NCBI GenBank assembly: GCA_013076295.1
Contig: RQOL01000616.1
Span: 992,001-1,056,000, forward strand
DNA: 64,000 nt
From: Sanderia malayensis
Taxonomy: Eukaryota > Cnidaria > Scyphozoa > Semaeostomeae > Pelagiidae
Direction of reading: 5' to 3'
This document shows positions 31,367 through 58,800 of the stretch, piece after piece; position 1 is the stretch's first letter; each line of letters opens with the position of its first letter. The notes under the pieces are model-generated. The model had not been told where the DNA came from and searched no databases. It was given only the letters and a program-made list of their open reading frames with translations. The position numbers and the translations under genes were made by a program.

Positions 31367-31735
31367 TATTGTCGGGTCGGCTTTGATGATAAGGAACTTT
31401 AGGCAATTTTAATGAAGATGTTGTCTTGTCGCAACACGTGTGAGAAAATCCTTTTCGTCAACTGGGTTCTTCCAAAAATGTCATGTTATTGAGTTGAATA
31501 GTTTCAGTCCATATCACGTGACTCGGTTTGCGTACGATCTCCCTCGAAGAAACGCCCCCCTTTCTCCCCCCAAACCATAAAAATCCAAAAAGCACCCTGG
31601 GTGTCTTTTTAAGGAAATACGGAAATACGGGTACAAAATAAACGTACCTCCCCCGGTTGTTAATTATTGAAAATTTTTGCAACACTGGGAACAATTTCCA
31701 TATTTTACAACTTCTTTTGTCATCAGGTCAACATT

Positions 31736-31780
31736 GAGGTATTTTTTTGGCCAAAATATGGTAGCTCCACAGCTGTGGAA
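31736..31780 (+). repeat. Left terminal inverted repeat of the KDZ transposon
   Basis: It contains GAGGTAT, CCAAAATATGGT and the 14-bp palindrome TCCACAGCTGTGGA (31766-31779). It is matched in inverted orientation by the right end and, in part, by every unit of the internal array. It is preceded by the target repeat CAACATT. Confidence 0.85.
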
Positions 31781-31878
31781 GAAGTATTATAATGAACAAC
31801 AACAGCAACAGTTCTTTAAATAATGCTGATGGCTGCATTATTTTCTCTTGCGTGTGTTGCTCTCGATTCAACCTCACC

Positions 31879-34800
31879 ATGGACAAGCGTGATCCTCTGC
31901 TTTCAGATATTTGCAAGAAGATTGATAAGCGGAGACTTCTTGAAAATGAACATCGGGCGAAACGAAAGGCATGGGCTGGCAAGCTTGCTGAGGCAAGTTC
32001 CTCCGAAGAATTTAACGAGACTTCCCTTAAATTTGTAAGCGATTTGAGGCCTCGAAGTAGACAAGAAAATAGGCCTTCAATTTCATCTTCTTCGGCAACC
32101 AAAACCAACAAAAACATAAGTCTTAAATACAAACCACTCGATCATGCTGATGTCGTTTATGTTAGCATGGTAGAGGAAGAGGACCTAGCCTCTGGTTATG
32201 GTAGCCCTGATAAAAGTTCTCCCCTATCCCCATTACTAGAAGATTTTGACATGGATGCCGATGATGACAATAATTTTCCACTCTCCATTTCCAATAACGT
32301 GAAGATGAACTTGGAAAACACCGATAAAGTAAGTTATTTATTAGTCACAGATGTGATAATCTTGGTCTTACAATCGTAATGATGCATAGAATAAGGATAC
32401 ACGCATTTTGTTTTATAAGCAAAACTGCTTTATAAGCAAGGCAGCACTCTGCAAGGCAAAAAGTTAAGCAATTTCAGTACTGGATTGAAGACTGCTAAGC
32501 AATTTGAAAAATTGTATTTTCAGTACTTAGCAGGAAATGTGAACTGACACCATCTTATTAACAGGAATAGCCTGTGCAAGCGTTATCTGCCCTCAATACT
32601 TGTTGACTTTTAATACTTATACCTATATTTACCTTTTTCTAATCTATTTTCAAAGAACACGAACAAAAAGTTAAGCAATTGCTAAGCAATTTTGAGTGCT
32701 CAAATTTGCCTTCCAGCTAAGCAATTTTTAGTACTGAGCCCGAGTTGAAATTGCTTATAAAAGAATGGGTGTATCATCTCTTAGTGTCCTTTGTCATTAC
32801 TTATTATCACTATTATTATTATCACACTTCATTTCATATTTATTATATTTAACTGGAAAAATTTCTTGAAGCATTGTCTTCATTCGTCTAATGCTTGCTT
32901 CTTAGTTTAGGTAATGGTATTAACATATACCATAATGTGTACATAACATTGATTAATTAATGCAAATCTTCTACAGTATAACAACTGTGAAATGTGAAAT
33001 TGTTATTTGCTATATTTTTGGTTTACAATGAAAATTTCACATAAGATAAGATTATTTTTCTTTTTTTATGTCTTGTCTGCTTTATCATATGAGTGCAATA
33101 TAATTGTGTGCAACTGGCCTAAATGTTCGCTAAATTTATTTCTAAAAATAAGAACAAATTATTATCTTGATAATATGCTTGAATTGTTCCCTCTGTGAGT
33201 TTGAAAGAACAAACATGTATTGGTGGTTTGCTAAATTCATGTCAAGCCATAATGGCCATTTAGACCCAACCTCAATTTATTAATTTTAGGGATATTTCAA
33301 ACTAGATCCAGTCATAAATTATGTTTATGAACTTGCACAGAGAGGTGGAATATCACCAGTGAACCAAGATTATACGTGTTTTTGCTTGCTGGACTTTGAT
33401 GAAAAACAAGGAAGCTTGAAGGTATGTGGTTCTGTCATTAAATCTTATTGGTTTTACTGTAGCCATTTTCTTCATTGAAAATGTGACCTTGCTACAAGTA
33501 CTTTGTTTTGCAGTGTTTCTGATTTTTTTGCTATTCTGAACTATTATATAAGACTATTCCATTAGAATATAAAATTTGAATAGAAAATCGTATGAAAATA
33601 TTATCATAAAAGAAATTATTTTCTTAGAATAAAATAAAACCTCTACAAAAATAAAATGTTAGATGCTTGTGTTCACACAGAATTATGGTCAGAGCATTCC
33701 AGTGCTGTCAAACTTGTTGCATGTATGCTTTTTACCACCTGGTACCTGGAATAATAGCACACTGTAATAATAAGAAAAAATTTGAGTAATTGAATTTCTC
33801 AATGCACTGAATAATGTATTTTCATTGGATATTTTTTATTTGTGCACAGGAAAGGTCCTACGTATTTGTTATGCGAAAGTCAATACAATTTGAGGACCAA
33901 TGGAACTGGCTGTACGCTTGCACTTGCACAAGAGGGGATGTAAAGTATCTCGCAACATTATCTCAAAGCATTCCATTGTCACGGTTCGGTATGAAAAAAA
34001 AAATAATTTAGGAAACTTTTCTCGTTTACTGTTAGATAATAAAACATTGAAACATTGAAGCATTTGGTGAAACCAATATTAGCTTAGCTGTGGGTACTAT
34101 ATTAAGCTAGCAACGCGATCCAAGCAAGATAATAGAAGAGTGATCATTGGCATAATTTAATCTGGTGTTATCTTGGTTGATGACTGACCTTATGCCGTGT
34201 ATATTTGCAGACTTTGGGAATGGATACAGAAATGATTGTTTTCACATCAAATCGGCATTGCAATTAATGCTTAAATTCGATGCACGGAATAATATTGACC
34301 CCGAATCACACTTCAAAGAAAAAGGTATGTTTTGCTGCCATTCTCGATATATTTTTCTTCATTTTTCACTTTCAAAGCCCTCCTGAATGTGTTCTGCAAC
34401 CCTTGCTTGTCTGTAGTGTGTTTGTTTCGATTGTTCTTTTCAGTTGAAAAGACAGTTCAATTGTACTTGCTTTGCTTATTGTGTTGCAAAGATAATTTCG
34501 TATAATTTTGTTCATTGTAAGACGCAATCAAGCATGAACAAAGCTCCCATTGATTGTTATCGCAAGCGTAAAATAGTATTTTCTATATTGTCTGGTTTCA
34601 GGGGGAGAATCTCCCGATTGCTGTCCTATTTTCGGTTTGTTTGGGTCAGATAATGTAGTTGCGGTATTTGACCAAGATAGAGATGAATATGGAGCAGTAA
34701 CTGTTGTAAAGAATCGTTTGTCCTGTCTATCCTGTGTAAATTCTACGTGTTGTGCCCATATAGTTATCATGAGATCCTTTGAAGGATCTGTGCGTTTGCC

Positions 34801-37800
34801 TCCTACTGCCGTTAAAATGTTAAAAGAAACTGGAGCTGACGCTGCATTAAATGAAGAATTTGATGTCGATTCATCATTAGATGATATCAATGGCTGCTTA
34901 TCTTGGAGGACAATTCCATTTGAGAACACGCATTTGGCCGAGAAAGAGTTGACTATAATAAACCTATCTCGTTCTGGCAGGGTCATAAACTTAGTCCCTA
35001 CGATTATTAGTGATCAACAGCATTGTGGCTTGTGCAGCAGTCTTTGGTCTCGAGAAAATAGCGTGGAACGTGGTTGGGTATATTGTAAAGACGCAAAAGT
35101 ATTTATGGATGCTGGAATTTGTTTCGCCCAAGGTACAGTAAAAACATTGTATCCGATTGTTGACATTTGTATTCAGTCATTTTAATTCGTTATGTGTCGT
35201 TATTATTTATTACATATATCTTATAATTGTTCCTCTTTGCAGTGTATTATATCAAATGTAGCAACAAGGAATGCGAATACAAGTACCAATACGATGGTTT
35301 GGAAGACGGGCTCTTAAATATGGGACAGTACCTCGTTAGCCATAAGCTATTGAGAAGATTTATGCTCAGCTTTCTACGTGGAAGGTAAGCACCAAAATAA
35401 ATTAGGAAAACAATAGCAAATAGGACAAACAGGCCCGTACCTATACAAAGGGTGTAAGGTGTTACACCCGCCCAAGCAAAAGTTCTGTCGGAAAATCACG
35501 AAAGTTTCTATGCCTCTCAGCAATATTTTAAGTTGGTTGTATTTGGGGAATCCACGAAGAAAATTAGGTGCTGTGGCATAAACGGAAGCTCATTTTGGTC
35601 AATTTATGTTTTCCAAAATGTGCCGACAAATATAACACAAAATAGTTAACTAAACTTTAAAAATTCATGAAAACATCTCTTATAAATGGGTATTATTTGT
35701 GGGAACCACTCCCATTTTGTCGCCATAAATGTAAGCACGGTCCTACACACCCCCATAAAAATTTTCTAGGAACGGCCCCAAGGATAAATTATCAAGATGT
35801 AAGAAATTATGCCAAATCATTCTTTTTCAGGATGCCTATTTACATTTTCCATTCCATTTATGTGCAAGAAAAGCGTGACGATGGTCTTTCTGAATTGGTT
35901 GGAAATTTCGTGTATAATAAGTTTAAAGATTCGTGGTATTCTTATTTGAGACTAACCGACATTGACGTAAATAAGAATTTCGAGTGTAGCAAATGTTTGA
36001 ATTCACCGGCCATTTTGCTCATGGATGCGACGTCCTTGTCGTTTAGAAGAGAATTAACCCATTGGCGCTCATTTCTGCAAACAGTTAAAAAGGACTCTCC
36101 AGAAAACATACCAAGATATAGGTAACTATACACAAATGGCTGAGCTAGTCAATTAGCTAAGCTGTTAAACCGTTGACATTGAACTAAAATTGTTAAACAT
36201 TAAATTTCAGCAAATTCAAGGACAGAATTATGATAAAATCGAAGCCCTGCAGAACTCTTCTTCTGCGTTACTGTAACAGTTCTCGACGCAAGAAGAACAG
36301 GCTCAGCAGAGATGAATACGATGAGCTGCTTGATTTACTACAGATGGAGTCAGTAGATATTGCTACATTGGTGAAAGAGATCAACGATTCTTCTGTAATG
36401 GAGGACCACCAATACACGAAACCCAACAAAAAAACACCGACGCTCTCGGCAGCCTTTACTTGCCCACAAGTTTGGGTTCCTTTTATTGAAGCATTGGGCA
36501 CTTCAACCCCTGTATGTGGAGTGATACACCAAGACGCAGATCTCTTGCATTCTTTAGAAGAGCTTATTGTTTCCGATTCAGTGACAAGTGCACAACTAAA
36601 GACGTTCAAGAACTCAATGCCCATTCTCCACGATGTGATTGTATCACATGCCGATTTTCGATGTCCAAAGTCACTGATTCCTGTGCTGAAGCTCATGGTC
36701 GAAAGGTCAAAAAACCCTTTCAAGAATACACTTTCAGCAAGTGGTTCAGGGTTATTGTTGACTAAAGATAGAGAATCGCGATACTCACACTGGCCAAAGC
36801 TCTCCCAAGTTCGAGAGCGTGGTGTGTACGAAATGGATGTGAAAAGTGCCTCGCGATCTTCTCATAGCTGCAATAAAAAAAGCACCGGACACCCAACGCT
36901 GTTGCCAGGAATATTCACAATGTTTTGTGAACACGGTGAGCATTTACTTAAATGTTTTATGGCTCTTTAAAACACTACAAGCACTATTCTTAACATCAAT
37001 GAGTTGAATTTTTTATAGAAATTTGCTATGGATTTGAAATCATGTTGACCGAAGAATCGCCAGATGTTCCCTTCAGCGTCATTTTCACACGATTTGAAAA
37101 AGGTTAGTATTGGTTGACTTGTGTAAAATTATTCTAATTGGTTCAAACTCTTCGTAATATTATCAAACCCAGGGATTAGCACACCTGCCTGAAAGTGAAG
37201 GGGAGGGGAGATAAACGAGGGAAGGGGAATTTCTAAAACCACGCCCTCAGAGCGTCAGAAAACGCCATTTTTGCTCGATTATGGCTTTTCCGTGCACATT
37301 CATGTACTGTTGAGTTCAGAAACAAGACAGGAAACCATCAAAGAAACTGGGCCACTATGTCGCGGTGTTATACAGTGATGTAAACATATTAGTGAAAAGC
37401 AAGTTCACCAAGTTAATGACCATGTTTACGTAAAGATAAAGTTAGCTACCACGTATGACACTTGTGCTTGCGAATTGTTTCTTTAATGCCTTTGGACTAT
37501 TTGAATAAGAGAAATTAAAAACTTTACATGCAACATCTAAAAAAATGATTAAGCCCGTTTTTGAAAAAAGTGAGAAGAAATGAATGTCCTTTAGCTCCTC
37601 TAACCTAATGGCTGCGGGGTCCTGGATCAAATCTGATATTGTCTTTTCGTTCCAGCCCCTGAAATCATTGTCTATGATAATGCATGTAGTTTGCATGAGT
37701 ACTGCTTGAACAGACAACCAAGTTTTTTCAAAGACACCAAATTTCTAATCGATCGACTACATTGGAAAAATCATACAGGTAAGCAGTCATCATATTAATC

Positions 37801-38100
37801 ATTCAATTTGTCTGAAATGGGTTCTACGTATGCACATGACATTCCAATTTTTCCAGCAAGCCCAACTACTCCATGAATCGCTACCTTCTTCCTTCAGGAT
37901 GCTCCGAAGGATACAATCTGGACAGATATCTCTCGCTACGGCATATCAATAGCCAAATAAATGAGCAAATGAATTCCTGCCTCAAACGAATAAAGCCAAC
38001 TCTCTCCTATATGACGCACGAAAATTTCATGCAGCATTGTTCATTGTTTTTATGGTACCGAAATTTGCTAACCAAGGAGAGACGCCAAAAAGCAAAGTAA
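31879..38100 (+). CDS. KDZ transposase (HMGXB3-like)
   Basis: Transposase of the Kyakuja-Dileera-Zisupton superfamily; vertebrate HMGXB3 belongs to the same wider family. Eleven exons give 977 residues: 31879-32328, 33290-33421, 33850-33988, 34211-34324, 34602-35132, 35243-35384, 35831-36121, 36211-36935, 37019-37102, 37656-37778, 37898-38100. The N-terminal part is charged and serine-rich. Exons 5-6 carry a SWIM-like cluster (CLSCVNSTCCAH) and a cysteine cluster (CGLCSSLW ... KCSNKECEYKY). The catalytic half has the three expected acidic sites: LLMDATSLSF, IVYDNACSLHEY and NSQINEQMNS, with LHWKNHTGCSEGYN between the last two. An upstream in-frame ATG at 31792 would add 29 residues; I preferred MDKRDPLL. 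All phases match and no stop interrupts the model, so it could be active. Confidence 0.9.
32400..32771. mobile_element. MITE, TA-flanked, TIR CACGCATTTTG...TTATAAGCAA, in transposase intron 1
   Basis: A 372-bp element with TA on each side, ends CAC(G/C)CATT..TTTTATAAGCAA inverted, and many AAGCAATTT words. A truncated copy in opposite orientation is at 61741-61979. Confidence 0.83.
35430..35779. mobile_element. MITE-like element, TIR CAGGCCCGTACCTA, in transposase intron 6
   Basis: The left end CAGGCCCGTACCTA and the right end TAGGAACGGCCCC are imperfect inverted copies. Internal TACACCC/GGGTGTA words occur near both ends. It resembles the element at 12351-12551. It lies between transposase exons 6 and 7. 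Confidence 0.65.
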
Positions 38101-38160
38101 CCATTCACGTGAGTAAATTATGCAATTTCTAAAACTTAGTTACATGTTTCTATGCTTCAT

Positions 38161-40266
38161 GAGACCAGTTTCGTATTATGCTGAAAGCATAGTTGAACTC
38201 CTGTGGAAAGACACCATATTTTGGTTCCTTCCACAGGATCGGGATTTCTACTGAAGTTGTGTATTTGTGTGAAACAAACTGTTCTGAATACGAATTTTTG
38301 ATGTTTCCATCTAATGTTGTGTTGATGAGACCAGTTTCGTATTATGCTGAAAGCATAGTTGAGCTCCTGTGGAAAGACACCATATTTTGGTTCCTTCCAC
38401 AGGATCGGGATTTCTACTGAAGTTGTGTATTTGTGTGAAACAAACTGTTCTGAATACGAATTTTTGATGTTTCCATCTAATGTTGTGTTGATGAGACCAG
38501 TTTCGTATTATGCTGAAAGCATAGTTGAACTCCTGTGGAAAGACACCATATTTTGGTTCCTTCCACAGGATCGGGATTTCTACTGAAGTTGTGTATTTGT
38601 GTGAAACAAACTGTTCTGAATACGAATTTTTGATGTTTCCATCTAATGTTGTGTTGATGAGACCAGTTTCGTATTATGCTGAAAGCATAGTTGAACTCCT
38701 GTGGAAAGACACCATATTTTGGTTCCTTCCACAGGATCGGGATTTCTACTGAAGTTGTGTATTTGTGTGAAACAAACTGTTCTGAATACGAATTTTTGAT
38801 GTTTCCATCTAATGTTGTGTTGATGAGACCAGTTTCGTATTATGCTGAAAGCATAGTTGAACTCCTGTGGAAAGACACCATATTTTGGTTCCTTCCACAG
38901 GATCGGGATTTCTACTGAAGTTGTGTATTTGTGTGAAACAAACTGTTCTGAATACGAATTTTTGATGTTTCCATCTAATGTTGTGTTGATGAGACCAGTT
39001 TCGTATTATGCTGAAAGCATAGTTGACTCCTGTGGAAAGACACCATATTTTGGTTCCTTCCACAGGATCGGGATTTCTACTGAAGTTGTGTATTTGTGTG
39101 AAAGAAACTGTTCTGAATACGAATTTTTGATGTTTCCATCTAATGTTGTGTTGATGAGACCAGTTTCGTATTATGCTGAAAGCATAGTTGAACTCCTGTG
39201 GAAAGACACCATATTTTGGTTCCTTCCACAGGATCGGGATTTCTACTGAAGTTGTGTATTTGTGTGAAACAAACTGTTCTGAATACGAATTTTTGATGTT
39301 TCCATCTAATGTTGTGTTGATGAGACCAGTTTCGTATTATGCTGAAAGCATAGTTGAACTCCTGTGGAAAGACACCATATTTTGGTTCCTTCCACAGGAT
39401 CGGGATTTCTACTGAAGTTGTGTATTTGTGTGAAACAAACTGTTCTGAATACGAATTTTTGATGTTTCCATCTAATGTTGTGTTGATGAGACCAGTTTCG
39501 TATTATGCTGAAAGCATAGTTGACTCCTGTGGAAAGACACCATATTTTGGTTCCTTCCACAGGATCGGGATTTCTACTGAAGTTGTGTATTTGTGTGAAA
39601 CAAACTGTTCTGAATACGAATTTTTGATGTTTCCATCTAATGTTGTGTTGATGAGACCAGTTTCGTATTATGCTGAAAGCATAGTTGAACTCCTGTGGAA
39701 AGACACCATATTTTGGTTCCTTCCACAGGATCGGGATTTCTACTGAAGTTGTGTATTTGTGTGAAAAAACTGTTCTGAATACGAATTTTTGATGTTTCCA
39801 TCTAATGTTGTGTTGATGAGACCAGTTTCGTATTATGCTGAAAGCATAGTTGAACTCCTGTGGAAAGACACCATATTTTGGTTCCTTCCACAGGATCGGG
39901 ATTTCTACTGAAGTTGTGTATTTGTGTGAAAGAAACTGTTCTGAATACGAATTTTTGATGTTTCCATCTAATGTTGTGTTGATGAGACCAGTTTCGTATT
40001 ATGCTGAAAGCATAGTTGAACTCCTGTGGAAAGACACCATATTTTGGTTCCTTCCACAGGATCGGGATTTCTACTGAAGTTGTGTATTTGTGTGAAACAA
40101 ACTGTTCTGAATACGAATTTTTGATGTTTCCATCTAATGTTGTGTTGATGAGACCAGTTTCGTATTATGCTGAAAGCATAGTTGAACTCCTGTGGAAAGA
40201 CACCATATTTTGGTTCCTTCCACAGGATCGGGATTTCTACTGAAGTTGTGTATTTGTGTGAAAGAA
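38161..40266. repeat. 166-bp tandem array, 13 copies, inside the KDZ transposon
   Basis: Twelve full units and one partial unit of 165-166 bp are almost identical; variation is limited to single-base deletions and a few substitutions. Each unit has a hairpin with 9-bp arms CCTGTGGAA / TTCCACAGG around 20 bases. On the minus strand it reads CCAAAATATGGT, five bases, TCCACAG, the same composite motif as at the transposon ends. The unit length is not a multiple of three, so the 75-residue open frames repeated in every unit are not a protein repeat. It sits between the converging 3' ends of the two transposon genes. Confidence 0.97.
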
Positions 40267-40399
40267 AGTGTCCCGAATGAGTAGTGAAAAATGTACTTAC
40301 CAATTTTACTTTCTCAAATCGTAGATGTGTCTGAGTATCGATGTTCGGATGTTTCGTCCTACTTCATGGCTGTTTGTCTCTTCTATGTGTATTGTACTG

Positions 40400-43300
40400 T
40401 CAATGATTTGGAACTCCTGTACAATCGTTTAATAATTTAGTAAATTTGTCTACTGCAATAATAAATACCTGAAATATAATTATGATGATTGCTTACCATT
40501 TTCATTACACATGAAATGTAATAGAGCATAAATGTTCCACAGTCCATGGAAGCAACTTGCTTTGGTATCTACAAATTTTATGTCAAACGCTTGAATACCC
40601 TTACTAACGGTGCTAACCTACTCTGGTTTAGCAACGAAATTTCCAATAAACCAAGAGCATAAAAATCATCAGCACAGCGATAATTATAAAAGTAGAATAC
40701 CTTATTGGAAATAAAGTTGAACTTTGTCACTGGCTTCGCTTGTTTTCTTTGCTCGGCATTGATAAAGGGAATTAACATTTTCAATTGGCTTTCGCAACTC
40801 GTTTCTCCCATTGAATCTAATACTGACATCCTAAGAATACCATGAAATAAAAATTATTTGTACACGAATAAAGTCAAATACAGCAGTGTCCAGTTGAAGA
40901 AATGTTCCCAACATACATATGTCATTGTTAACGTTTTGACAACACCCTTTTCAGATTCACCTTTATGACAAATAATAATTTTATGGACTTTCTTGTTCTT
41001 TTTTTTATATTATCCAAGTCACATATAAAAACACTATAATAGTAGGCCATGGAATACTGTGGAATATAGGGTACACTAATTGTGTACCAAGATACGTACC
41101 AGTGTTCTGACAGTGAAAAGATGATTATTACCCAATGCCAAGAGTCACTATAAGCAAGTATAGGTAAAATGTAGTTATTCATTTAGAGAATCAAGTCACC
41201 AATATCACATCATGAGTTTTGTGATATTACAAAATCAGATCGAAATAATACAATACTTGTAACTTCCTTAATTACCTCAAGACACAAGGAAAGATAACAA
41301 TATCGTGACTCAAAATGTTATCTCTTGGAAAGATGGGTTTCCAACAAGAGTCACTTGCAAAAATTTGGCAAACATCTTCAGTGTTTGCAACGAATACATT
41401 TGATTTTGGAACAATGATGTTTTGCAGTACTCTAAAAAATATTGTTTGCGAGTTACATTTCATAAAGCAAGCAAAGATAATAATCTTATCGAAGATACAC
41501 GACATACGCTGATCTTCTCACCTAATATAGAAGTTTACCAGCGAAGAGGAGAATCCAAATGAATGCAAGCAAAATATATCAAACAGTGAAATTATCACCA
41601 CAGATTCGCATGATTTTGGTTTCGATACTGCCTCGGGCCATTCCAAGATGCTGTGAATAAAAATAGTGTGAGCAAACTGGACATTTGGTTGGTAGTCAGA
41701 ACAAGAATGATTTTTTGCCTAAAATGAGAATACAGTCTACTCTCGATAAGTGGAACCCCGGACAAGTGTAACTTTCGTTTAGTGGAGCCAATTTCTCCGG
41801 CCCCTTGGATTTGCATTAACAAACCTATAATTTGGATAAGTGGAACATTCAATAAGTGGAACCATTTTTTCGGTCCCGTGCAGGTTCCACTTATCGAGAG
41901 TAGACTGTAATAACTTTATTGCTAGGAGTTACAAGTGAAACAGCAAAGAACTGACACATACCTTGCAGCATCATCGAAATGATGAGCCAAAAGATTCATG
42001 TTACCCCTTTGAAGCTCGTTGCAAATTTCCTTCTCTAGGCAGCAAACAAATTCTTTTTTGTGCACCGCTATGCCACTACATACAGCATGATAATGGAGAT
42101 AGCACTTTCTACATTGCACCCATTCTTCCTTCTCACCACTCACTGCAATGCAACCAAGCAGCTTCCTCCCAGCACAGAACTTGGTAGCAATTTTTTGTTC
42201 CTGAAGATTTTCAGGAAAATTCCTTGGAGCTGCAAAAAATTATTCGCAAATCGCAAAGATATAACTTATGAATGGTGTTCTGAATGAAGAAGATGGTCAA
42301 TATTTAACTTGCAAAAGTACTTACAGATTTTCCAGACAAGTGGAACATAATGATTTGGTTCTTTCAAATCTTTAGAAGCTCCAACAAACATTACATTTAA
42401 TGGCCTCTCAACGAGTTGTTGAAGGCAAATACATGGTGACATTAGACCATGGTAAAAGTCACTATACGAACAGTGAAGATTGACATTACGATGAAGACTT
42501 GTTCCAAGAAGCCGTACCTGTAGCAATCCTGCAAAAATGTTTGTGTTAGCGGTAATACCTACACCTCGCTGAGACGCGAACACTTTTGAAAATCCCCGAA
42601 GGTGTCTGTTTTAGAGATAGTTGACTATATTGTGTTACAACATAATTATGTTAAAGCACAATTACCTGCAAACGATCTTTGGAATGTAAGTTCCATGATT
42701 TCGCTGCGTATGGCAAATCTTAATATCGATGTTGCTGTAGTGGCTGAAGAGCTAGAAGGACGACGTGCATAGGTTTCGGCTGTCGAAAACACATACAGCA
42801 TTTGCAGTGCACTGTCTCTAGTTATGTACAAATCTCTATACTGGGAACAAATAAATCCTGATCAGTAATTTTAAGGAAACACAAGCCACCCCTCTATTTG
42901 TTTTAACACTAAAGTAAATTGTTTTTTGGCGACTAACCACACAACATACTGAATAGATTAGTTACCTCATTTACAAAATGTTCAGCATGATCAATGCCAT
43001 CCACAGCAGCAACAAGACGTAGAATTGGAGCAACAGCTTCCGTGCCAAAAAGAAGTTTTCCGATCGAATTAAACAAGCAGTCACCGTTACCAGTGGCTGT
43101 AAGAACTTGCATGCCATCTGGAACAATATCCAAGTTGTTATATCTGACATAAATATAAACAATTATGAAAAATTCCTACAGCCTTAATACTAAAGTGTTG
43201 CATAAATACACAACAAAAGACACAAGCAAAGCGGCATAAACTTACAATTCATCAATAACAGATACTGATGATGGCATTGTGCGCATTGTAAATTCGTCTT

Positions 43301-45997
43301 GATGTCCTGAGAGGAAAATCTTGCATCTCTCAACAAAATTTTTATCTATTTTAGATACCTTCTTCAAAAATGACTCCCATCTGGTATCCGCAATAGCACG
43401 CAGATGCTTTTTGGACATAATTGCCTGAAGAAAAAGAAAAGTCATCCATTGTAAGATCTTTTCTTCGATTAGTAGTTGTAATGTAATGCAGTAAACAACC
43501 GCATATAAGAACCAATGGATTAAGGAGCTTTCAGGCTGAAAATTTTGCTCAAAACTTTAAAATAAAGAACAAGCTACTGTATATTTGAAAAACACGATGG
43601 ATGCACAATTCATAGGTTCTAATCCCCGGGTGTTTACTGTACTACACAAAGTTAATCAAATGTTCACGCCACATATTATCCACATTTTATTCTCACCAAC
43701 TGTCTCAACTGTTCACGAGGTAAAATGTTCGGAGAAGCTACCTCTGTTTTCTTTTTTAAATCTGTGGCACGCTCAACAGATCTAGGTGGCTAAATTTCAA
43801 GAATCAAACATACGCAAATGAGGTTAACACTTCAAAAAAGAATAAATATGTAATATGAATAAATGCAAGGGAAACGTAGGATGAAACACTTAGAACAAAC
43901 CACTTTGATCGAAGCAAGTTCTTGCTTTTTGTCCGTCTCTTCAGGTATTAGTTGATTCGGTTCCTAAAGTAAATTATTACCCAATCAAACGCCTGGGTAT
44001 TTACAGATTAATTTTGTATATTAAAAAATGATACTAAAAACTCATTTTGGGACATTTTGACGTGATCATTGAAATTCTTAGAAATCATTGACAATCTTAT
44101 AGAATTTAAAGACCAGTACCAAAAGCTTTGAATATTGACTTCTATTATATAGATTATTGTTATTGTCATCTATGACATTACCTCACTGTCTTCATCGTCA
44201 ATCGCAACCGCATCTTTAATTAACAACGTTTTGGCAACGACTTCATTTGTATCTATGTGCTAAATCAATAATAAGATGATTTGAATATGTTTCATAAATT
44301 GCAAATTGGTAATTCGTCTTTATATCCACATTTCCTGATGAAAAACAGAATCAGCAATATCGATTTAATTGATAACCATACGATCCATGAAAGTACCTAC
44401 ATGTGAGTTTTCCAATGTTTCATTTTTCCAATCAGAAACTCTGAAACATATACATTCTACTCTTAGATATAATTTGAAGGAAAGTGCTTTAAGGAAACGA
44501 AATGAACTGGTGCTTGCACACATTTTGACTGTCTAATAAATACTCACATTTCATGAATTAAGTGGTTTCTCAATGCCTCTCCAACAATTACTAATTCTTC
44601 TTTTGAAAGGCTCGGTTTATCTGCAGACAGCATGTACAATGAGTTATTAACATTTGCATTGACACTTCCATTCTCATTCTGTTATCTTTTACATATTATT
44701 GACAGGCTAAAGTTTAAGAAAGTAATTAGTAGAAGTGTGGTTTGCATCAATCTTTACAAACTAACCTTCAGTTGCATCTCTTTCTCGGATGTTTGGAGAT
44801 GTAAATGGTACAGGTTTTGGCCACCAATCTGGCTTATACAGCTCTTCATTTATCTTTCCCCAAAATCTGTTTATTCGACGTCCTCCAGTTGTGTAGTTCA
44901 CAATGAACATTCTTAAGTCATCCTTAAGAATCCAAGATACACCCTTTTCTATTGAGATATATAGTAAATTCTTAAATATAAATTGTATGACAAGGACAGA
45001 AGTACGTAAACACATGCAAATTCACACAGTATATGCATATTAGGACATGTTCATATCCATACCAATTAATGTATTTAGAACACCCTCGTCAGCATTTGAT
45101 GCCCTTTTCCTTTTTGTTGACAGATTGTTCTCAGAGGTAATTGGTTTTCCAGTTAACGAGTTTTCAATTATTCTTTTTACTTCCTCTGATGCTCCAAAGG
45201 CCTTTTCTAGATCAGAATCTCCTGTTTTTGTTATAAATTGTTTTCATTGCATTACAATATGCACAGCATGTAGTTCTTTCAAAAAACTGTTACACTAATA
45301 TAAAAACAGATAAGAGCATTCCATAGGGAAGCTCTAAAGAAACTTTTACCTACCCACAAAGTGAATTTCATTCTTTTTTTTAAAGATCAGCAAAGCTGGA
45401 AATGACTCTAAATTTCTTTTCAACTTCAATACCTTTGTAGAAAAAAAATTCCTAACAGTGCTACCTTGAATACACTCATTTACTTGAATATACGAAGTAC
45501 ACAGTCACTTCTTGAGCTATGCAGGCTATTTAAGGATGCAGAACAATGCAATAAACAACAAAAAATATACTTCTTTGGCAAAAATTTATAAATATACTTT
45601 AATGCAAAAATAAATCTTATGAAAAACATGACAAATCACATCACGCACACTAGAAATGAAGATGACACTTAAACAATCACACCAAATGTTAGTATTTTGA
45701 TGCCTTACCATACTAAAACTGAATGAAAACCAACCAAATAAAAGCGATCATCGCCTGCTAAAGATGTACATTTTTCTACTACCATGCTAAATATATTGCA
45801 TTACTACTTACACGCTTTTTTAAGCTATCAATTTTCCTATTATACATTTGGTAGTGTGTTCGTTTTCTTTTCTTCGCCCCCCTTTTCTTGACCTTGTCGT
45901 CTGGAACTGCATTCTTTTCCTCGCATGCAACTTCTTTATCCAACAAAGAAGATTCTGTGTCATTGTCAGAAGATGAAGAAGACGCTGCCATGGACAT
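40400..45997 (-). CDS. Transposon-borne OTU protease, PHD-like finger and Ulp1-like protease fusion
   Basis: A 790-residue model with 20 exons: 45814-45997, 45063-45221, 44766-44948, 44548-44620, 44401-44440, 44182-44259, 43901-43963, 43742-43789, 43246-43424, 42966-43143, 42666-42840, 42325-42528, 41962-42229, 41599-41650, 41508-41521, 41276-41431, 41100-41147, 40701-40830, 40497-40568, 40400-40468. The N-terminus is acidic, then basic (KKRGAKKRKR, a likely nuclear signal). Exons 10-12 hold the OTU-type domain: TGNGDCLFNSIGK has the catalytic Asp-Cys context and NHYVPLVWK the His. Exon 13 has a PHD-like finger (WVQCRKCYLHYHAVCSGI). Exons 17-19 hold the Ulp1/C48 domain: DSWHWVIIIF (His), VLDSMGE (Asp), PKQVASMDCGTFM (Gln and Cys). 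The exon 1-2 junction and the last exon are the least certain parts. Inference: it removes ubiquitin- or SUMO-type modifications from the transposase or host factors. Confidence 0.83.
41733..41907. mobile_element. MITE, TA-flanked, TIR CAGTCTACTCTCGATAAGTG
   Basis: A 175-bp element with TA on each side. The ends CAGTCTACTCTCGATAAGTGGAACC are nearly perfect inverted copies. It lies between exons 13 and 14 of the OTU/PHD/Ulp1 gene. Confidence 0.93.
43489..43639. mobile_element. MITE, TIR CAGTAAACAACCGCATATAA
   Basis: A 151-bp copy of the family at 13813-13961. The right flank is TA and the left flank has mutated to TG. It lies between exons 8 and 9 of the OTU/PHD/Ulp1 gene. Confidence 0.85.
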
Positions 45998-46116
45998 CTT
46001 TTCGATTTGAACCTAACTGCAAGTACAAGTTAGGCCGACAACAACACGTGCAGTGCATTCCCCAAAAAACAAACAACAACAACATTTGAATTGCTGACTC
46101 AGTGATACGTCATATC

Positions 46117-46162
46117 TGTTCCACAGCTGTGGAACACCAAAAGTTGGCGGTGGATATACCTG
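46117..46162 (-). repeat. Right terminal inverted repeat of the KDZ transposon
   Basis: It contains a 20-bp perfect palindrome TGTTCCACAGCTGTGGAACA (46117-46136), then ACCAAAAGTTGG and ATACCTG outward, and ends at the target repeat CAACATT. The palindrome is better preserved here than at the left end. Confidence 0.86.
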
Positions 46163-46407
46163 CAACATTACCCAAAGTTGAACTGAGCTGAATTCTTATT
46201 TCTTTGTTCTCTGTTCTTGTTGTCAAAGCAAAGCAACCAAAACCTTAAATCTTGAAACAAAAACATTCAAGGATTCAACAAACTCAATGGTCTTTTCTTG
46301 CGATCAAAGATCAGATTTTACAAATGCAGTGGCAGACGTAGAGCAGAAATTAAAACTGAAATTGGACTAAGACTAAGCCTAGGCTTCTTTGTGCTGAACA
46401 GAATAGA

Positions 46408-49813: not shown

Positions 49814-52800
49814 TCAAATTTTGCTCAATTTTCTATTGATTTCGCTTGCAGAAGTAGATGCTAAAACAAAGTAAAATAATAACGGAGTGAAACATAAGCC
49901 ATTAGGATAAGACAGCTCATTACATATTATTTTTTCCGTGAGATTTCTAAAATAATAACAATAAATCACTTACCTGTTGTCACAATCTTGATTATTCTTA
50001 AAACATTTTGATGCAAGAACGAAGATTCAGCCGAAAGGACGCCAACGTAGACTTCACCATCTATACTCCACGTTCTAATTTGCTTGATATTGTTTGGGCC
50101 TTTGCTTAGAACACTGTCGACCATGATGAACTTTCCTGCTCCGGCAAACTGGAATTGAATGACACAAATAGCTCGGTCGAATCTTTAACAGTACAGTATA
50201 GTTGAGAAATGGTGAATTGTTAAGATGTACAGCAATGTTATCAAACGAACCTGGAATACTTTAACTGCTTGCATGCTGCTGCCAATGATAATGTATGTAT
50301 ACTTGTCAATATTGAACGATGCTAAGAGCATAGCGCCTGGAGCCTTCAGGTCTTGGTACCAAACGAAAGCTGAACGTGACTTTTTGTAACTGAAACATTA
50401 AGTATATTATGCATCAATAGAACTGGAAACGTCGGAGAAACGGTACCGAATTTAAGTACAATTAAAAACATGGAGAAATTGCATTTTTTTACTGTGCAAA
50501 GTTTATTTAATGATGAAATATGTTAATTTCTCTGCCGAATAAAGGCTTTATTTTGGAGAAGTACCCGATTTTCAACAAGTTTCGTATTGTATAAAATTTT
50601 GAAAATAGATTAATCTGTCTCACCTGTAAATCTGCACTGGCACATTGTAATCTGTCAGAAGTGATACGCCACTGTACTGGTATTCATTCGCAATAATCAA
50701 AAGCAATTCATTCTGAATTTCGAGAAACATCACATCTTTTGCGAAAAATGTTGGCAATCTTTGCAAAATCAAATAGCTACCATTTACATTAACTTTATAA
50801 ATGACAGCTTCTCTTCCACTGTATAATCCAGAATTTAATGAAACCAGCAGAAAGTTCTTTTCATCGATCTGTTTCGCGACCAGCTTTCTGGTATTGCATC
50901 CCAGTATTGATGCAATCTGCTTTTTCTGCTTAACTAAATTGATGAGCAGTGGATTGGAGAAGACACATGTTTGATGCGAGCTTGCGTCAAAGGTGTTGGT
51001 GAATGTGACCAGAGTGTCATTGTTGAATTCTGTGATGTCAGCCTGAGTGGCATACTTGGTGTCCTGATCTTGCCTTGACACTGTTGTTAGAGCATTTTCG
51101 AAATCCATTGAATAAATTGTGCTTCTTTGCAATGTTGGTACTGTGCTGTGTGTCCTAGCTATAGCAGCATGAATTATATTGCCTCGTGCAATCATAGAAA
51201 CACTGGCACCACCTTCCGTTTGCACCTGAAGCAACAACATTTAAAACAAGTATGTATGTGCCATTTCGTTTGCTTCTGATTCCTTTTAGAGTTTTTGGCT
51301 TTTATTTCAGCCACAATTTTCAGCAATGTTTCTAAACCTATTTGCGTCTATGCTATGTTGGCTCACTGAATGTGAAGCTAATTTTAAAGAAATTGTTAAT
51401 GGACTTTCAAAAGAGGCCCCAAAACAAAGAATTTTAAGAACTAGGCCTCGAGGTAGGTTCTTTATAATCTTATCAGTGACTTACCTGTTTGAATGGATAA
51501 ACTTTTCCAGTTAAAGAATTTCTTTTATAAATTGAAGAATTCACATAAGTTCGACCATCCAATAAAAGCATGACAAGTGAATTTTTGACCACAACAGCAT
51601 CAAATGAATTAACCGAAGATGAAAGCTTCAATGTTTCTTCAATTGTATAGTAGTCCAGTTTTGGCTGAAGAGCTATGAAAAAAACCAGAACAATTTTTAA
51701 GCAGTTTTTAGGCTAGCAGCAGGCTAAAGTTTCATTAGTTCAAAACAAGCTTTACACCTATTAAAGGTATTTATACAAACTATGTGGTGGCTCTTACATT
51801 GCACAGACTTGACATAGGCATGAAGGGCCCTACTCTGCATTTTTATGGTTTGATTTAGCTTGAAAATTTCCATTTTGACAGTTCTGTTAGCATGAAAGTA
51901 TCTTTGGAGCAGATCTTCAACTCGTATACCATCTATCGTTGATATCGTTAGATTGCCTGAAAAAAGCGAGTTTTGATTAATGTTCGATTGTCAGAGTTGC
52001 ATATGGCTAAAGACTGACTGCTAATTTAATAACAACATTGGTGTGCATTTTACCAATTTAATTTGTGCAGGTTTCAAAGAATCACAGCTATCGAACCATT
52101 GTCAGTGACGTACAGATAGCTTATGTAGATAGCTTATGCAGATAGCTTATGCATATAGCTTATGCAGGAAGCCTTAAATAAAATTGACAAGGAACATGAT
52201 TATCAAAGTTATACCTTTAATTCTCAAGTTTCCGATGATCTCCTTTGTAGCATTGATGTAGTTGTCTGCATTGGAAAACATCGACGTTGCATTTAATTTA
52301 AGAATGTCCACTCCATTGATATTCCCTTTGACAATAAGATCCCCCTTTACGATGACTTCTGAAAATGTTTTTGCAGCAGTGATTTGTTGATCTCCAACTT
52401 TTAGCAACAAGTGGTGACTTGAAATGTTATAACCGTTGATGAGGCCCCTTGCGGTTACATCCGTCATTGCAGCAACGTTATTAAAATTAACGAGACCGTA
52501 TATGGTCTGTGCCTTGTGTAAATAAACTGCCTTGGATGCAAGTTCAGATACATCAATACCGTTAATGGTTACCGATGGGTTGACCGCGATATTTCCGTAT
52601 ACGGTTATGTTCTTTGTAAATATCTTTTTTCCAGAAATCGATTGATTGGAGAAAACAAGCATCAGGTCTTCAGGAATGTTGAGTCCGTTTACAGTTTTAT
52701 TCACAAAAAATCCGTTATTAAAAACCGAATCCTTCTGGAATATTTTTTCTCCTTTGATATTAAAAGAGCCATATATTTTCACCGAATTTCTATCCATTTT

Positions 52801-55800
52801 GCGTACGTCAACACCGTTTATTTTACCGGAGGTTTCAATTCTTTTAGCAAAAACGTCTCCATAAACCGTGACAACATTGAATATCTTTGTTCCCCTTATA
52901 ACCTGAGCTGTACTTTTCGTGACAACATTCTTACTAAATATCGTCAGATTGACATTGTTCAGGAGCCCGAGGATCGTACATAATTTCGTAAATTCGACCG
53001 TGTTGTTGAAAACAAACACCCCGGTTATTACCTGATCACCATGTTTGCTTAGGGCAGTAGATTTCAGTTCCGTCACGTTCACACCATCAATGAATCCATC
53101 CAATTTTAAGTTTCCGCTTAATTTGAGAACACCAATAAATGATTTTCTTGCATGGATAATTTGCCGTCCATGTAAATACACTGCATCATTTGCAAGTTTT
53201 GTCAGGTTGACATTGTCAACAAGACCGTCAACAAACAGGCCTTGTCGGAGATTGACATGGTTTGCAAATGTTTTTTCGCCAAGAGTGACATTTCCAATTA
53301 ATGGTACCGTTTCTTTGGATAAGTCAATACCGTTTACTTTTCCTTGAATGTCTGCATTCCCATTGATATTGACTTGACCGAAATGATAAACACCATAGAC
53401 CGTCTGGTCACCGAATAAATAAAGTGCTTCGGTCTTCAACTTGGTAAGGTTTACGCCGTTCAAAAGTCTACCAATGTGTACATCTTTAGTAACAGTGACA
53501 TCGTTGGTAAAAGTAACATCTCCTCTTATAACTTGGTAGTCCCCATTCAACTTTACAGCTTCATTTGAAAGCTTCGTCAAATTCACACCATCCAGCAATC
53601 CATCAACATTGAAAGTGGTACCCACTGTGATTGGTTTGGCAAAAACCTACGAGGTATAAAAAACAATTGTCAGGTTAACTTTTTGATGAATTTTCTCGAA
53701 ACTCTATTCATAAATGCTGCATGTATGCTATGATGCTAGGCGGTAGTTTATTATGTCCATTGTGGCAAAATGTTTGAGAAAAAGAGATTGTTTGTTACCT
53801 TTTTGCCTGTTACCGTTTGATTGCCCCTTAGTCTCAAAGAGTTCAGACTGAGATGAGTCAGGTTAATTCCATTAATATTTCCATTGGCTTGCAAGTTGCC
53901 AGCAACATCGAATCCCTTTGTGAATGTAACATGCCCAGAAATAATTTGAGAGCCATACTGCTTCAAGACGGTCTTGTCAAACTCAGTGATGTTGATACCA
54001 TCAACGAGCCCATCAACAAGCATTGCGTGTACGGTAAGGTTACGTACTCCCAAAGGACCTTGAAAGACTTTCTCACCGGTTATTATCTCGTTGCCTTCAC
54101 GCTTGACCAAGCCTGTCGCGATATCAATGCCATTAATTTTACCGCCTACATTGACGTCCTTTTTGAAATGAATGCCATCACTGAAGGAGTTTACTCCATT
54201 CACTACTTGGTCACCATGTAGCATCAGTGCCTTGTCGTACATGTCGCTGACATTGATGCCATTCAAACGTCCAAAGACCATCACAGATTCGGAGGCATGA
54301 ACTGCATTTCTGAATATTTTCCTTCCTTTGATTCTTTGTGGACCATTCCTTGTTACCATTTCGTCACGGATGGTAATATTGTTTACAAAGCCATGTACTG
54401 TTATATTCTTAGATGCAGTCAAATGTTTGACGAAAATTTTGGTGCCAGTTATAGCTGTTGGCTTGTTTCGTTTCACTGCTTTTTCTGATAAATTTTTTAG
54501 TAGCTCTTCAAACAAGCACGAACCATTGCAATCCAGAGTAACATTGACAGCCGAAACTGATTCAAATACGAAGTCACCAGCTATCACTTGTGGCACATGC
54601 TTATACACTGCCGTTCTGGCCAATTCTGATAGATCAACACCATCAACGGTTTTTCCAGCCAGCATTGAAACATTGCCTCTTACGGTCAGAATATCTGTAA
54701 AACGTTTTTTGCCTTTGATGATTTGATTTCCCCTTACCGTCATTAGATCGCCTAAAATAATAAAATAATAAAATCTTCATAGGTTGGTGCGCGTAAGCCA
54801 GAAGTAGCAAAATTTATAAAAATAACAAGGGTTGTTGAGGGTGGTTGGCGTGGATTCTCAAGGTTCACATTTGTCCTACGTTTGTAAAGTACAAGGAATG
54901 GTAGTGTATAGCACACTGCACTGTTACTGTTAATTGACCATGTATTGTGTTTCACAACTGCATATGGTACATTGAATTTTTAGGTCAGTGACGAAATAAT
55001 TTCGAAACGAGAGTCCTAATAAGACTAGAGTCGTTGAGAATGAATTAAATAGTTAATGAGCGGGGTCCTCTTATTAGATTCTGTAGTTAATAAAAAGACA
55101 CAATAAAGAAGTTAAATTTCGCCTTAAAAATCAAAGTGCAACCATAACTAACCTGATATGTTGACACTGTTCACCAGGCCTTTCACATCGACGTTCTTGT
55201 GAAATGTGACGTCACGAGTAAAGTGTTTGTCCCCGTAGATTTTTTGACTCTTCGAAAGGAGGATGACATCAGAAGATACGTTGATGCCATTGATCAGCTT
55301 ATTTACTTGCAGTGGGCTTTTAAATACAACATCATTGTTCAAGACTACAGAGCTTGATATATTCTGATTTCGACTTCTGCTGAGCACAACCTTTTCAAGT
55401 TCTGACACGTCGACATTATCAATTGTTCTATGTTCACTCATTGTCAGATTGCCTTTGATGTTTATTGAACGATCGAACTGCTTGAAACCTCCGACGAATT
55501 GATCAGTATCAAGAAGAACTGCGGAGCCATACAAACTTGTAATGTTAACGCCATTGACCGTAACGAAATCTGCATCTCCTTCAATGTTTACGTTTTCAGT
55601 AAATTTATAAAACCCAATGATGGTTTGGTTATCAAGTAGCGTCATTAAATGTTTTCTGGACACTGGAATCCCATCAAGGTGACCTTTCACGACCATGTTA
55701 CCTTCATTAGTGGTTCTGGAGCGAAATGTCAAATTACCTCGAAAGCTTTTCTTCCCTGAGATTACTTGATCTGTTTTCAAAGTGACCATATCAGCCGTTT

Positions 55801-58800
55801 TAACTTTATCAAGAGTTCCACGTAACGTTAAGTTGGCTCTCATGTGAACTTCACTGGCAAATGTTTTTCTTCCAAAAACTGTTTGATTCCTATCGATGTA
55901 TATTGCCTTGGCTGCGATTTTACTCAAATCTTTGCCATTGATAGTCCCAGAAACACTTGCGCTGGAAGCTTTCACATTGCCCAAATGCATAGGACTTTGA
56001 AATGTAAATGGAACGTCAATTGTTTGCCTTTTGGACTTGCTCAAAGTCTGCAGCGACAAGTGCTGGAGAGAACGAATCAAAGATTGTTGTTTTTGGACTT
56101 TACTCTTCAACGCGTTTTGTCGCTTCAATATATCTTCATCGCGAGGGGACAACTTAACTGTTCCCAATGAACTTTGCTGGGTTGTCATGTCTCCACGTAC
56201 CAGAACATCTGTGAAATTTTTCAAGCCTAGGGACAGAAAAATGATACAAGTAGGATAATGCCAAGAAATTGAAAAATTAACCCAACACTTTGTACCGGGT
56301 GAAAAGTTGGATTACAAAATACGAATCAGTTTTTATCTGTGGATGTCGTCATGATTTTTGGCAAATGAACATTATAGTGACATGTAATTTTTTTGTGAAT
56401 TAAATCGAGTAACCCTTGCGAATAATCATGAAATGTTATTAATTAAAACGTTAGAAGATGAAAATTCTTTAATTTGTCGAGAATTACCTGTGATTGAACT
56501 ATTATCGTTGAGAAATACAATTTTACTGCGCTTCATATGGAAAGTATCATTTACTTTCGACACTCGTTCATTCAAGAGCAGCAACGTTTTGTTTATTTCT
56601 CCCACCTTTACCAAAGTGTCATTCAATAACTTATATCTTGGATATGACTTAGTGAAGTCAACTCTGAACAACTGGCCATTGTTGATTCCAGAAAATACAG
56701 TTTTGGCATTGCGAATCAGTACCATGGTCCTGTTCTTTACTCTCAGGCTGTGCGTTACTGGCGAATCGTAATCCATATTTGACGGTTTCAAGGGCTGTTG
56801 TGATTGCTTGAATCTCCAACCATCATATTCGAATAATGTGACGTTTTTGCTGTTGGTTGTACTCAGCGCCAGAAGGAACTCTCCACTCTGTCCTAAAAAT
56901 GATTCAATAAAGTTCCATGAAAAAATGAATACAGCAAAAATCCCATGTTTAAGAACCTACTTTTTTCAGAGTTTGGCAAATCAGCAAATCAGGCCCTTGT
57001 ACAATGAGATACAAATAGCAAAAGATCTTGTATGTTCTGCGCTATAAATATTTATTAACTTATGCATGCTATGCTGCCAAAAATCCAACAACATTAAATG
57101 ATCATTGATACAAAACGGTAGCTATATCAAATAAATTTTTCCATAAAAAAATATTAATATGGAAATACTGCTGTAAAGGTTTTTAGCGAGACAATATTGA
57201 AATTGAATAGTTAAGCCCCAAATATTAAAGCCTTTTAGAGCTTGTCTAGGCAACCAGAACCAGGTTTCTATATTTTGGGGTATTAAGAAAGCAAATTTCT
57301 GCCAGAAGGTTCTGAAGTTTCAAGAGTATCTCAAACATCTTTATCTCATTGGACAAATTTAGAATGCTACAGTGATTAAGTATGCAGTCTAAGTATATGC
57401 GCACAATCTAGCTCTTTTTGGTTCAAAATGGCAAGATAAAAAGTTGGCTTAATAACTTACCTTTGATGGCAGTCCACTTATTTGCTCCGTGTGCTTTTAT
57501 ACACTGGAAGGGCACAAATAGATTCCAGTTCCATTTGTAAATCACTGAATCCACTAAGTAATTCTTCCGTCCATTCCTATCAATCTTGAAATTATTAGCA
57601 ACAGCAAGGAAATATTCCGTGGCCAATCCTTCGCCAATGGAAAAGAACTCCCAGTCAACAGCTGCATCCGTTCTTAGTCTTTGAAAACTGACGAACCGCT
57701 TCAGATTTGAGGAATAAATGAAAATCTCCGAGTCCAAGTGATGCGAGCCTTCATCGTTGACAAAGTTTGCGACAACCACAAAATGCTTGTGGTGCAGTGC
57801 AAATGCGTCTATGTCCGTAGCACCATATGTAACCAATGAGTCGCTGGGTATCACTTGAAAGCTAACTGCCTTCCAAACATAAAATCTTGGAGCATTCTTG
57901 TACATGGTTTCTGAAAAAACAACAAATGCAAAATTAAGATGCAAACAAGAAACAACAACAAATGCAAACTACGAACTATGTCTTTTGTTTCCACAAAAAA
58001 TATAACTCATTTTTTTCAGGTTGAGGATTCCGAAGAAGTAATGAAGTGCCTTCAAGCAATAAAAAGCTCGTCCCAGTACAAAATTTCAAATATAGCTGTA
58101 TACATGCTTACTGTCACAGGTGTATTCAACTGTTAGATACTTTGTGAACACGGGACAAGGGTCCACAATTCCATCGGTAGGGGCTTTTAGAGTGCAACGT
58201 GTTTTATTATTGCACATCATTGCTACTTTCTCTAATATAAGAGGCGCTGAACAGGGTTGAATATTGAAAAACCATCCATGGTTGCAAATTGACCAGCTTT
58301 TGCGACCATAGAATGCAGACCGAATTGTGATACTTGAACCAGATGAGCATGATATCACTTGAGACCGGCCATCACAAACAGTTTTTGTAATGCTGGATCC
58401 AGGTGCTGAAAATAATCAAAAAAGAGTAAATATTACGTGTGTGGATGTAAAGTATACATTTTTTTACTTTTTTGATGTACCATTGGAAAGCTTAGTGTTT
58501 GGGTTACTAAATTTCAGAGTAGAACTGAGTTGATACAGGGAGTAACATTTGTACTCCTCCATCTATCAATTCAGCTGATACAAGAAGTGCAAATGTTATC
58601 AATCACACAACGCACCTGGGCGGCTATAAAAGGGTGGGCAGTAATCAGAGGAAACGCCGTATTTCCTCTAATAAGCTACCAGGCGCTTATTGAATATTTT
58701 GCAAAATTGGCTGGGTGCTTATTAGATGGGGCCGCTTAAAAGAGGGGCGCTTATTTCACACTTTTTATTTTAGGGTGGGCGCTTATTGGATGGGGCGGTT

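Follow-up and report, generated by a model that had tools for sequence, protein, structure and literature searches.

A transposable element of the KDZ superfamily was detected in a stretch of 64,000 nucleotides (the window), which represents positions 992001–1056000 of contig C569. The element comprises 14,427 bp (31736–46162 of the window), begins with GAGGTAT, terminates with ATACCTG and is directly abutted by CAACATT on either side. It harbours two large convergent genes, coding for a KDZ transposase (gene 1) and for a protein with a predicted Ulp1 protease domain (gene 2), respectively, and a tandem array located between them (Table 1). The window copy and its relatives with the same ends are referred to as family F1.

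Alignment of both ends yielded (G/C)AGGTAT, 8 bases, CCAAAATATGGT or CCAACTTTTGGT, 2–3 bases and TCCACAGCTGTGGAA, i.e., imperfect terminal inverted repeats (TIRs). This layout, like the 7-bp direct repeat immediately outside of it, had already been proposed from the letters of the window alone (in the following, the sequence-only reading) and was reproduced upon realignment. The genome searched amounts to 184.0 Mb in 918 contigs, and match counts for the end queries represent lower bounds. At least eight matches, including the window copy, were obtained with the first 565 bases, all of which begin at one and the same base of GAGGTAT; they count as six distinct flanks, since the matches on C767 and C704 have one flank in common and likewise those on C812 and C303:5.34M. 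The last 563 bases had at least nine matches (window copy included), four of which stop exactly at ATACCTG and four others 2 bases short of it with one common flank, while the ninth is a 52-bp internal fragment. The four shorter right ends are read as one duplicated derivative. Copies ending elsewhere, named in the sequence-only reading as an argument against a defined element, were not encountered: the left ends agree in 8/8 and the right ends, within 2 bases, in 8/9 matches.

A full-length copy on C415 is flanked by CAATCAG on either side. GCAAGGG flanks the element on C767 and C704 (left ends) as well as on C440 (right end), from which we infer a single insertion split by the assembly. Overall, a 7-bp target-site duplication (TSD) is present in all six assembled end pairs from two families, F1 and the related family F2 described below. 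The palindrome TTCCACAGCTGTGGAA occurs at 21 sites in the 184 Mb, each of them an element end, and its backward control at none. All 13 sites that were fetched proved to be element ends (12 with [GC]AGGTA, one with GAGTTAT); the remaining eight had been identified before, six as right ends of F1 and two as left ends of F2. Broken F1 ends with identical outer flanks were observed at several places (L006/L008 on C812 and C303:5.34M; L012–L015 on C812, C513, C68 and C303:4.72M), as if a remnant and its surroundings had been copied by another process.

Members of F2 (represented by protein P0016) possess a transposase with about 46 % identity to that of gene 1, and F2 proteins have several genomic matches of up to 99 %. 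Their ends are of the same type as those of F1, with the left end GAGGTATTTTTTGCAACGAATTTCGGTTTTCCACAGCTGTGGAA (C655 and C405) and the right end CAGGTATTTCATATACTGGAAAACGATGTTCCACAGCTGTGGAA. Three F2 end pairs carry 7-bp duplications, namely GTGAATC (C655), GCGTTGC (C405) and CTTCAGT (C686); the distance of about 54 kb between the C686 ends is read as the result of nested insertions. The C655 copy resides within a repeat, other copies of which run through the junction according to the matches listed. One fetched empty copy of this repeat contains GTGAATC only once, with 60 identical bases spanning the junction, and is a paralogous empty site for the C655 insertion. These other copies and the second family confirm ends, target repeat and partner gene of the element as given in the sequence-only reading. 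Two F2 right ends with a common flank were found 25 kb apart on one contig (C405:738870–780392), which reflects either a tandem duplication or the consecutive placement of two haplotypes. Further transposase relatives of about 37–44 % identity, several of them with stops, are located on C591, C684, C866, C628, C62, C269, C448 and C578, and point to additional families of the same kind in this genome.

Gene 1 was spliced from 11 exons (1006 codons) and gene 2 from 20 exons (867 codons). All introns of both genes are of the GT-AG type and neither reading frame contains an internal stop, in accordance with the two spliceable genes, each starting near its own end, of the sequence-only reading. The start codon used for gene 1 is situated 56 bp from the left end (31792), public relatives beginning 30 codons later at MDK, and that of gene 2 (45997) 165 bp from the right end. 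The whole gene 1 protein contains the KDZ-associated cysteine cluster CxC4 (PF18717, 31.6 bits versus a Pfam cut-off of 26.9). The KDZ domain itself (PF18758, cut-off 26.6 bits) was recognized in C-terminal pieces of 522 (29.7 bits) and 152 amino acids (32.5 bits); it was listed neither for the whole protein at E ≤ 1 nor for four truncated relatives at E ≤ 10. The predicted catalytic residues D597, D906 and E962 reside within the motifs MDATS, YDNAC and NEQ.NS, all of which are kept in three F2 loci and two of which in one locus of a further family; across the three F2 loci, D/D/E plus HW are conserved. The predicted protein has the three acidic, putatively catalytic residues of the KDZ superfamily, matching the three acidic sites of the sequence-only reading. 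The PDB gave no match to gene 1 at E ≤ 5, and Pfam listed no integrase family for either gene. Intron 1 of gene 1 harbours an insertion that looks like a short non-autonomous transposon (Table 1).

The public protein P0001 (EukProt) equals gene 2 at 99 % over aligned columns and at 90 % by local alignment, the latter value being lower because its annotation omits some of the gene 2 exons. Pfam and PDB domain scans were performed with a 798-residue draft of gene 2, from which 33 residues close to the N-terminus and the C-terminal 36 were missing; the former 33 were included in an N-terminal piece submitted to a later Pfam scan. The Ulp1 domain (PF02902) scored 35.5 bits against a cut-off of 20.7 and matched the SENP1 structure with E 5e-5. 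Together with the expected His, Asp, Gln and Cys, this qualifies the gene product as a predicted Ulp1/C48 peptidase. Further upstream, a Cys (NGDCLFNS) and a His (NHYVPL) typical of OTU active sites are conserved in 90 % or more of the rows aligned. Since these motifs are present, yet the cut-off for PF02338 (OTU) is not reached (not listed for gene 2; E 0.017 and 0.042, below cut-off, in the relatives P0007 and P0009), the region is termed OTU-like and not assigned to the OTU peptidases. A PHD-like finger (PF23004, E 0.0052; PF00628, E 0.055; both below cut-off) matched the KDM5B chain 2ma5 with E 0.02. The N-terminal region weakly resembles the DNA-binding domain of NRF1 (PF10491, E 0.027–0.054, below cut-off; NRF1 chain 8k3d, E 0.17 and 0.7) and may also be similar to the N-terminal region of Vertnin (VRTN). 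One gene 2 intron contains a 27-bp perfect inverted repeat, TACAGTCTACTCTCGATAAGTGGAACC, with a spacing of 125 bp (41731–41909), which may be another short inserted element.

The protein searches gave 12, 6 and 2 proteins among the matches listed, which follow one gene-naming scheme except for P0007 (source name Seg932.2/GoldUCD). The latter, presumably an Aurelia protein, displays a Ulp1 match and sub-cut-off OTU and PHD matches. HMGXB3, suggested in the sequence-only reading as vertebrate relative, was not recovered, no protein with a vertebrate name was among the matches listed, and neither were fungal KDZ neighbours of the transposase. Four of the six EukProt transposase matches are accompanied by a gene 2 match of adjoining gene number (3981/3982, 3057/3058, 8569/8570 and 10518/10517); consecutive numbers are read as genomic neighbourhood.

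Ratios of nonsynonymous to synonymous substitution rates (dN/dS) were determined for the window copy and six fetched regions, the fragments on C812, C513 and C859 and two C303 remnants being excluded, and are reported for pairs sharing at least 100 codons. Because of a nested insertion, gene 1 exon 5 of the C767 and C704 copies was masked beforehand. Between the window copy and five other copies, dN/dS amounts to 0.16–0.26 for gene 1 and, with five other copies or parts of copies, to 0.22–0.30 for gene 2 (dS 0.09–0.15; upper bootstrap bounds of dN/dS 0.25–0.74). Comparisons of the other copies with one another gave 0.32–1.06 and account for 18 of the 28 pairs reported. Among the window copy and the six regions, both genes are open in the window copy only; aligned to the window-copy exons, gene 2 contains an in-frame stop in four of the five copies in which it was at least partly recovered. 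Because dN/dS of the window copy is low, both genes appear to have been selectively maintained during spread of the family. An element that was most likely active recently and is probably autonomous fits the intact frames and the purifying selection deduced from these alignments.

The tandem array, which is not mentioned in the sequence-only reading, consists of 12.8 units of 166 bp (38159–40278). The motifs CTGTGGAA, ACCATATTTTGG and TTCCACAG appear in constant order in 13/13 units, and such a composite site is found nowhere else in the window outside the element. The exact left-end 12-mer is kept in all 13 units and otherwise occurs in the window solely at the left end. In other F1 copies, the array counts 12.8, 9.1, 6.1 and 5.8 units. 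Derivation of the array from a dispersed satellite was set aside, since the 47 listed genome matches of the F1 unit fall into five loci, all of them F1 copies. Rfam and tRNA scans of the window revealed no matches. Units are 99–100 % alike inside the window copy and 90–96 % alike to those of other copies; the higher likeness within the copy suggests a possible recent amplification or homogenisation. In F2, about two units of 175 bp containing CTGTGGAA, ACCGAAAAACG and TTTCCACAG directly follow the 3' end of gene 1 in three loci. The match of the unit to the left end of its own family had a shuffle count of 0/2000 in F1 as well as in F2 (1/1000 each in an earlier run), versus 20 and 897 of 2000 for the left end of the other family.

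Taken together, we consider it likely that this locus represents a complete 14.4-kb two-gene KDZ DNA transposon, moved by its own transposase with the help of a second protein predicted to remove SUMO or ubiquitin from chromatin. The DDE transposase would cut both ends and join them to a target staggered by 7 bp. Either the transposase or the gene 2 protein may bind the half-site TTCCACAG together with a family-specific inner motif, at the ends as well as at the 13 array sites, so that the array would gather element proteins onto the element itself. The array motif is common to F1 and F2 and altered in step with the left end, for which a single protein binding to both is the best explanation; array sites would likely be bound by proteins of the element. 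The gene 2 protein could be tethered via its N-terminal region, its PHD-like finger reading histones, while the Ulp1 part would cleave SUMO and the OTU-like part ubiquitin. Such removal might undo silencing or else aid repair of the donor and target sites. In yeast, plants and animals alike, silent chromatin is reported to be promoted by SUMO (PMC8131101, available part), and the TET/JBP enzymes of fungal KDZ elements are believed to erase silencing marks (PMC12730594, available part). Parallel and domain content would make gene 2 the putative animal counterpart of the TET/JBP erasers in some fungal KDZ elements. Only tentatively, at somewhat less than an even chance, do we extend this to the proposal that animal KDZ transposons carry an anti-silencing machine, in which a chromatin-reading eraser of SUMO and ubiquitin (gene 2) is tethered by a mid-element array of end-type sites, array and left end having diverged together.

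Several observations weigh against this interpretation. One of the six duplications pairs ends from different contigs and another the F2 ends on C686 some 54 kb apart. The empty sites proposed as a check in the sequence-only reading materialized in part: apart from the paralogous site of one F2 copy, the assembly contains none for the window copy (which would read GGTCAACATTACCC), the C415 copy or the C405 copy. Gene 1 is broken in 5/5 other copies when aligned to the window-copy exons, so that present activity rests on a single copy, and the five dN/dS comparisons are non-independent because C767, C704 and C440 may represent the same insertion. The OTU, PHD and NRF1-like assignments of gene 2 are all below the Pfam cut-offs, and the structure model, calculated for the public protein P0001 and not for the 867-residue gene model, is poor (predicted local distance difference test, pLDDT, 36.9) and unfit for comparison. 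The F2 array was seen as about two units only, at the edges of three fetched stretches, and the tandem-repeat finder did not list these units in L020, the one locus tried. Units of both families match right ends weakly (69 of 2000 shuffles for F1 and 399 for F2 with the own family, 639 and 62 with the other family), the F2 unit being closer to the right end of F1 than to that of F2 (62 versus 399). They furthermore fold into strong hairpins (z scores of −4.6 and −4.7), so that a role of the array in RNA is possible; its position at the 3' end of either gene gives no hint of a promoter. Weak right-end match and hairpins leave room for other readings of the array.

Gene 2 could instead act in the cut-and-join step, its N-terminal region serving as accessory binder of ends and array and its protease parts processing or stabilising the transposase or recruiting repair. 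Selection on gene 2 similar to that on gene 1, the pairing of both genes in several families and the weak NRF1-like match agree with such a function, as does the repair role proposed for the OTU and Ulp1 domains of Ginger elements in the available part of PMC2836005. We nevertheless regard it as somewhat unlikely, since the DNA-binding match stays below cut-off and a protease plus a histone-reading finger exceed the needs of end binding. The strong hairpins in both families (CCTGTGGAA...TTCCACAGG), the weakly matched right ends and the position of the array at both 3' ends would also fit an RNA element shared by the two genes, stopping or processing the convergent transcripts, with the likeness to the ends being a relic of an old end duplication. 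A relic of one duplication would drift, however, yet the unit of each family fits its own left end best, inner motif included, and the exact left-end 12-mer has been retained throughout the window array; this explanation is accordingly judged unlikely. Least of all do we expect both genes to be domesticated host genes enclosed by old transposon ends. Intact frames, low dN/dS and the presence of gene 2 in a public gene set would be compatible with domestication, but several dispersed copies with the same ends and perfect 7-bp duplications at unrelated sites, as well as a second family with ends of the same kind, led us to set it aside as very improbable, and the 99 % alike array units of the window copy suggest youth.

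Table 1 Features of the KDZ element (positions refer to the window)
Feature	Position	Strand	Evidence or remark
Left TSD copy CAACATT, 7 bp	31729–31735		flank comparison over end pairs
Left TIR, imperfect, ~45 bp: GAGGTAT, 8 bases, CCAAAATATGGT, TCCACAGCTGTGGAA	31736–31780	+	identical start in 8/8 genome matches incl. window copy
Gene 1, KDZ transposase, 11 exons, 1006 aa (amino acids)	31792–38100	+	spliced model, Pfam, protein search; dN/dS versus 5 copies
Gene 1, exons 1–6	31792–32328, 33290–33421, 33850–33988, 34211–34324, 34602–35132, 35243–35384	+	
Gene 1, exons 7–11	35831–36121, 36211–36935, 37019–37102, 37656–37778, 37898–38100	+	
Nested insertion in gene 1 intron 1, ~372–380 bp, ends GATACAC...GTGTATC	32396–32775		missing from 6 other fetched copies spanning the site
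CxC4 cysteine cluster exons, residues 438–549	34991–35882	+	PF18717 above cut-off
Asp597, predicted first catalytic residue	36024–36026	+	shared by 3 F2 loci and one locus of a further family
PF18758 KDZ match exons, residues 861–989	36905–38046	+	Pfam on C-terminal pieces
Asp906; His934; Glu962, predicted residues	37676–37678; 37760–37762; 37963–37965	+	inside KDZ match region
Tandem array, 166-bp unit × 12.8, between convergent genes; 13 composite sites CTGTGGAA-ACCATATTTTGG-TTCCACAG	38159–40278		repeats left-end motifs
Gene 2, predicted OTU-like/PHD-like/Ulp1 protein, 20 exons, 867 aa	40306–45997	−	spliced model, Pfam, PDB, protein search
Gene 2, exons 1–7	45997–45812, 45432–45354, 45221–45063, 44948–44766, 44620–44548, 44440–44401, 44259–44182	−	
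Gene 2, exons 8–14	43963–43901, 43789–43697, 43424–43246, 43143–42966, 42840–42666, 42528–42325, 42229–41962	−	
Gene 2, exons 15–20	41650–41522, 41431–41276, 41147–41100, 40830–40701, 40568–40497, 40416–40306	−	
Ulp1/C48 protease domain exons; predicted His752, Asp769, Gln811, Cys817	40503–41328	−	Pfam, SENP1 structure match
PHD-like finger, residues ~590–627	42039–42152	−	sub-cut-off Pfam, KDM5B chain match
OTU-like region exons; predicted catalytic Cys400 (43079–43077), His555 (42352–42350)	42225–43124	−	motifs NGDCLFNS, NHYVPL
Weak NRF1 DNA-binding-domain resemblance exons, residues ~141–203	44619–45066	−	sub-cut-off Pfam, NRF1 chain
Right TIR, inward reading CAGGTAT, 8 bases, CCAACTTTTGGT, TTCCACAGCTGTGGAA	46118–46162	−	end alignment, genome matches
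Right TSD copy CAACATT, 7 bp	46163–46169		flank comparison over end pairs

Beyond the element, the minus strand of the window contains a 497-codon open frame (15521–17014) with repeated units such as VGIPAKEVGELPEVQHS and a 228-bp tandem repeat (16006–16585). Three long open frames at 52174–56311, likewise on the minus strand, contain repeats such as INGVDVSKL...GNQ.I.G.K.F and look like parts of a single long repetitive protein.

The element is a member of the KDZ superfamily, for which target duplications of 7 or 8 bp are characteristic (here 7 bp in all end pairs); with Kyakuja, Dileera and Zisupton it was compared by described features, no lineage being claimed. The following comparisons refer to the available parts of the respective papers. 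KDZ transposase and 7-bp target duplication are shared with Kyakuja of fungi (Kojima 2025, PMC12730594), some of which carry a second gene for a chromatin-related enzyme, TET/JBP, instead of the Ulp1/OTU-like/PHD-like partner found here. Two described Kyakuja families have CA..TG termini without TIRs, in contrast to the GA..TG termini and imperfect TIRs of about 45 bp in the present element, and in the available text of that paper the word "tandem" is found in the reference list only. Zisupton and Dileera have the KDZ domain in common with the element, and Zisupton also the multi-exon transposase and TIRs; for both, however, duplications of 8 bp are reported (PMC12730594), as compared to 7 bp in 6/6 end pairs here. 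For Zisupton of Pristionchus, TIRs and no duplications are reported in the available part of PMC9297572. Ginger1 of Hydra and others (PMC2836005) carries OTU or Ulp1, one listed family combining Ulp1 and PHD as in gene 2, but its protease domains are fused to a transposase of the Gypsy integrase type, whereas here they are encoded by a separate convergent gene beside a KDZ transposase. Several copies of a transposase-binding motif per element are known from Galileo (PMC3688188), resembling the present array, where binding is predicted; the Galileo sites, however, lie inside long TIRs and not mid-element between two genes. Vertnin has an OTU-like region in common with gene 2 and is reported to be inactive without a catalytic site (PMC10318531), whereas the predicted Cys and His are kept here. 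Judged by titles and beginnings of abstracts, and with subscription journals mostly outside the search, the search revealed no report of a KDZ element accompanied by a partner gene of this kind; possibly, Repbase already has an entry for the F1 family.

In the literature consulted, complete KDZ anatomy is described for fungi and, by citation, for fish. It is now defined in a likely animal, comprising both KDZ ends, the target repeat, an empty site from a sister family, two selected genes and an array shared with F2. The 166-bp array is a new observation and offers a direct binding test, with about 13 sites in the element and family-specific inner motifs. Should gene 2 indeed act as an eraser, two distant KDZ lineages would each have gained removers of silencing marks, the fungal one TET/JBP and the present one SUMO/ubiquitin proteases.

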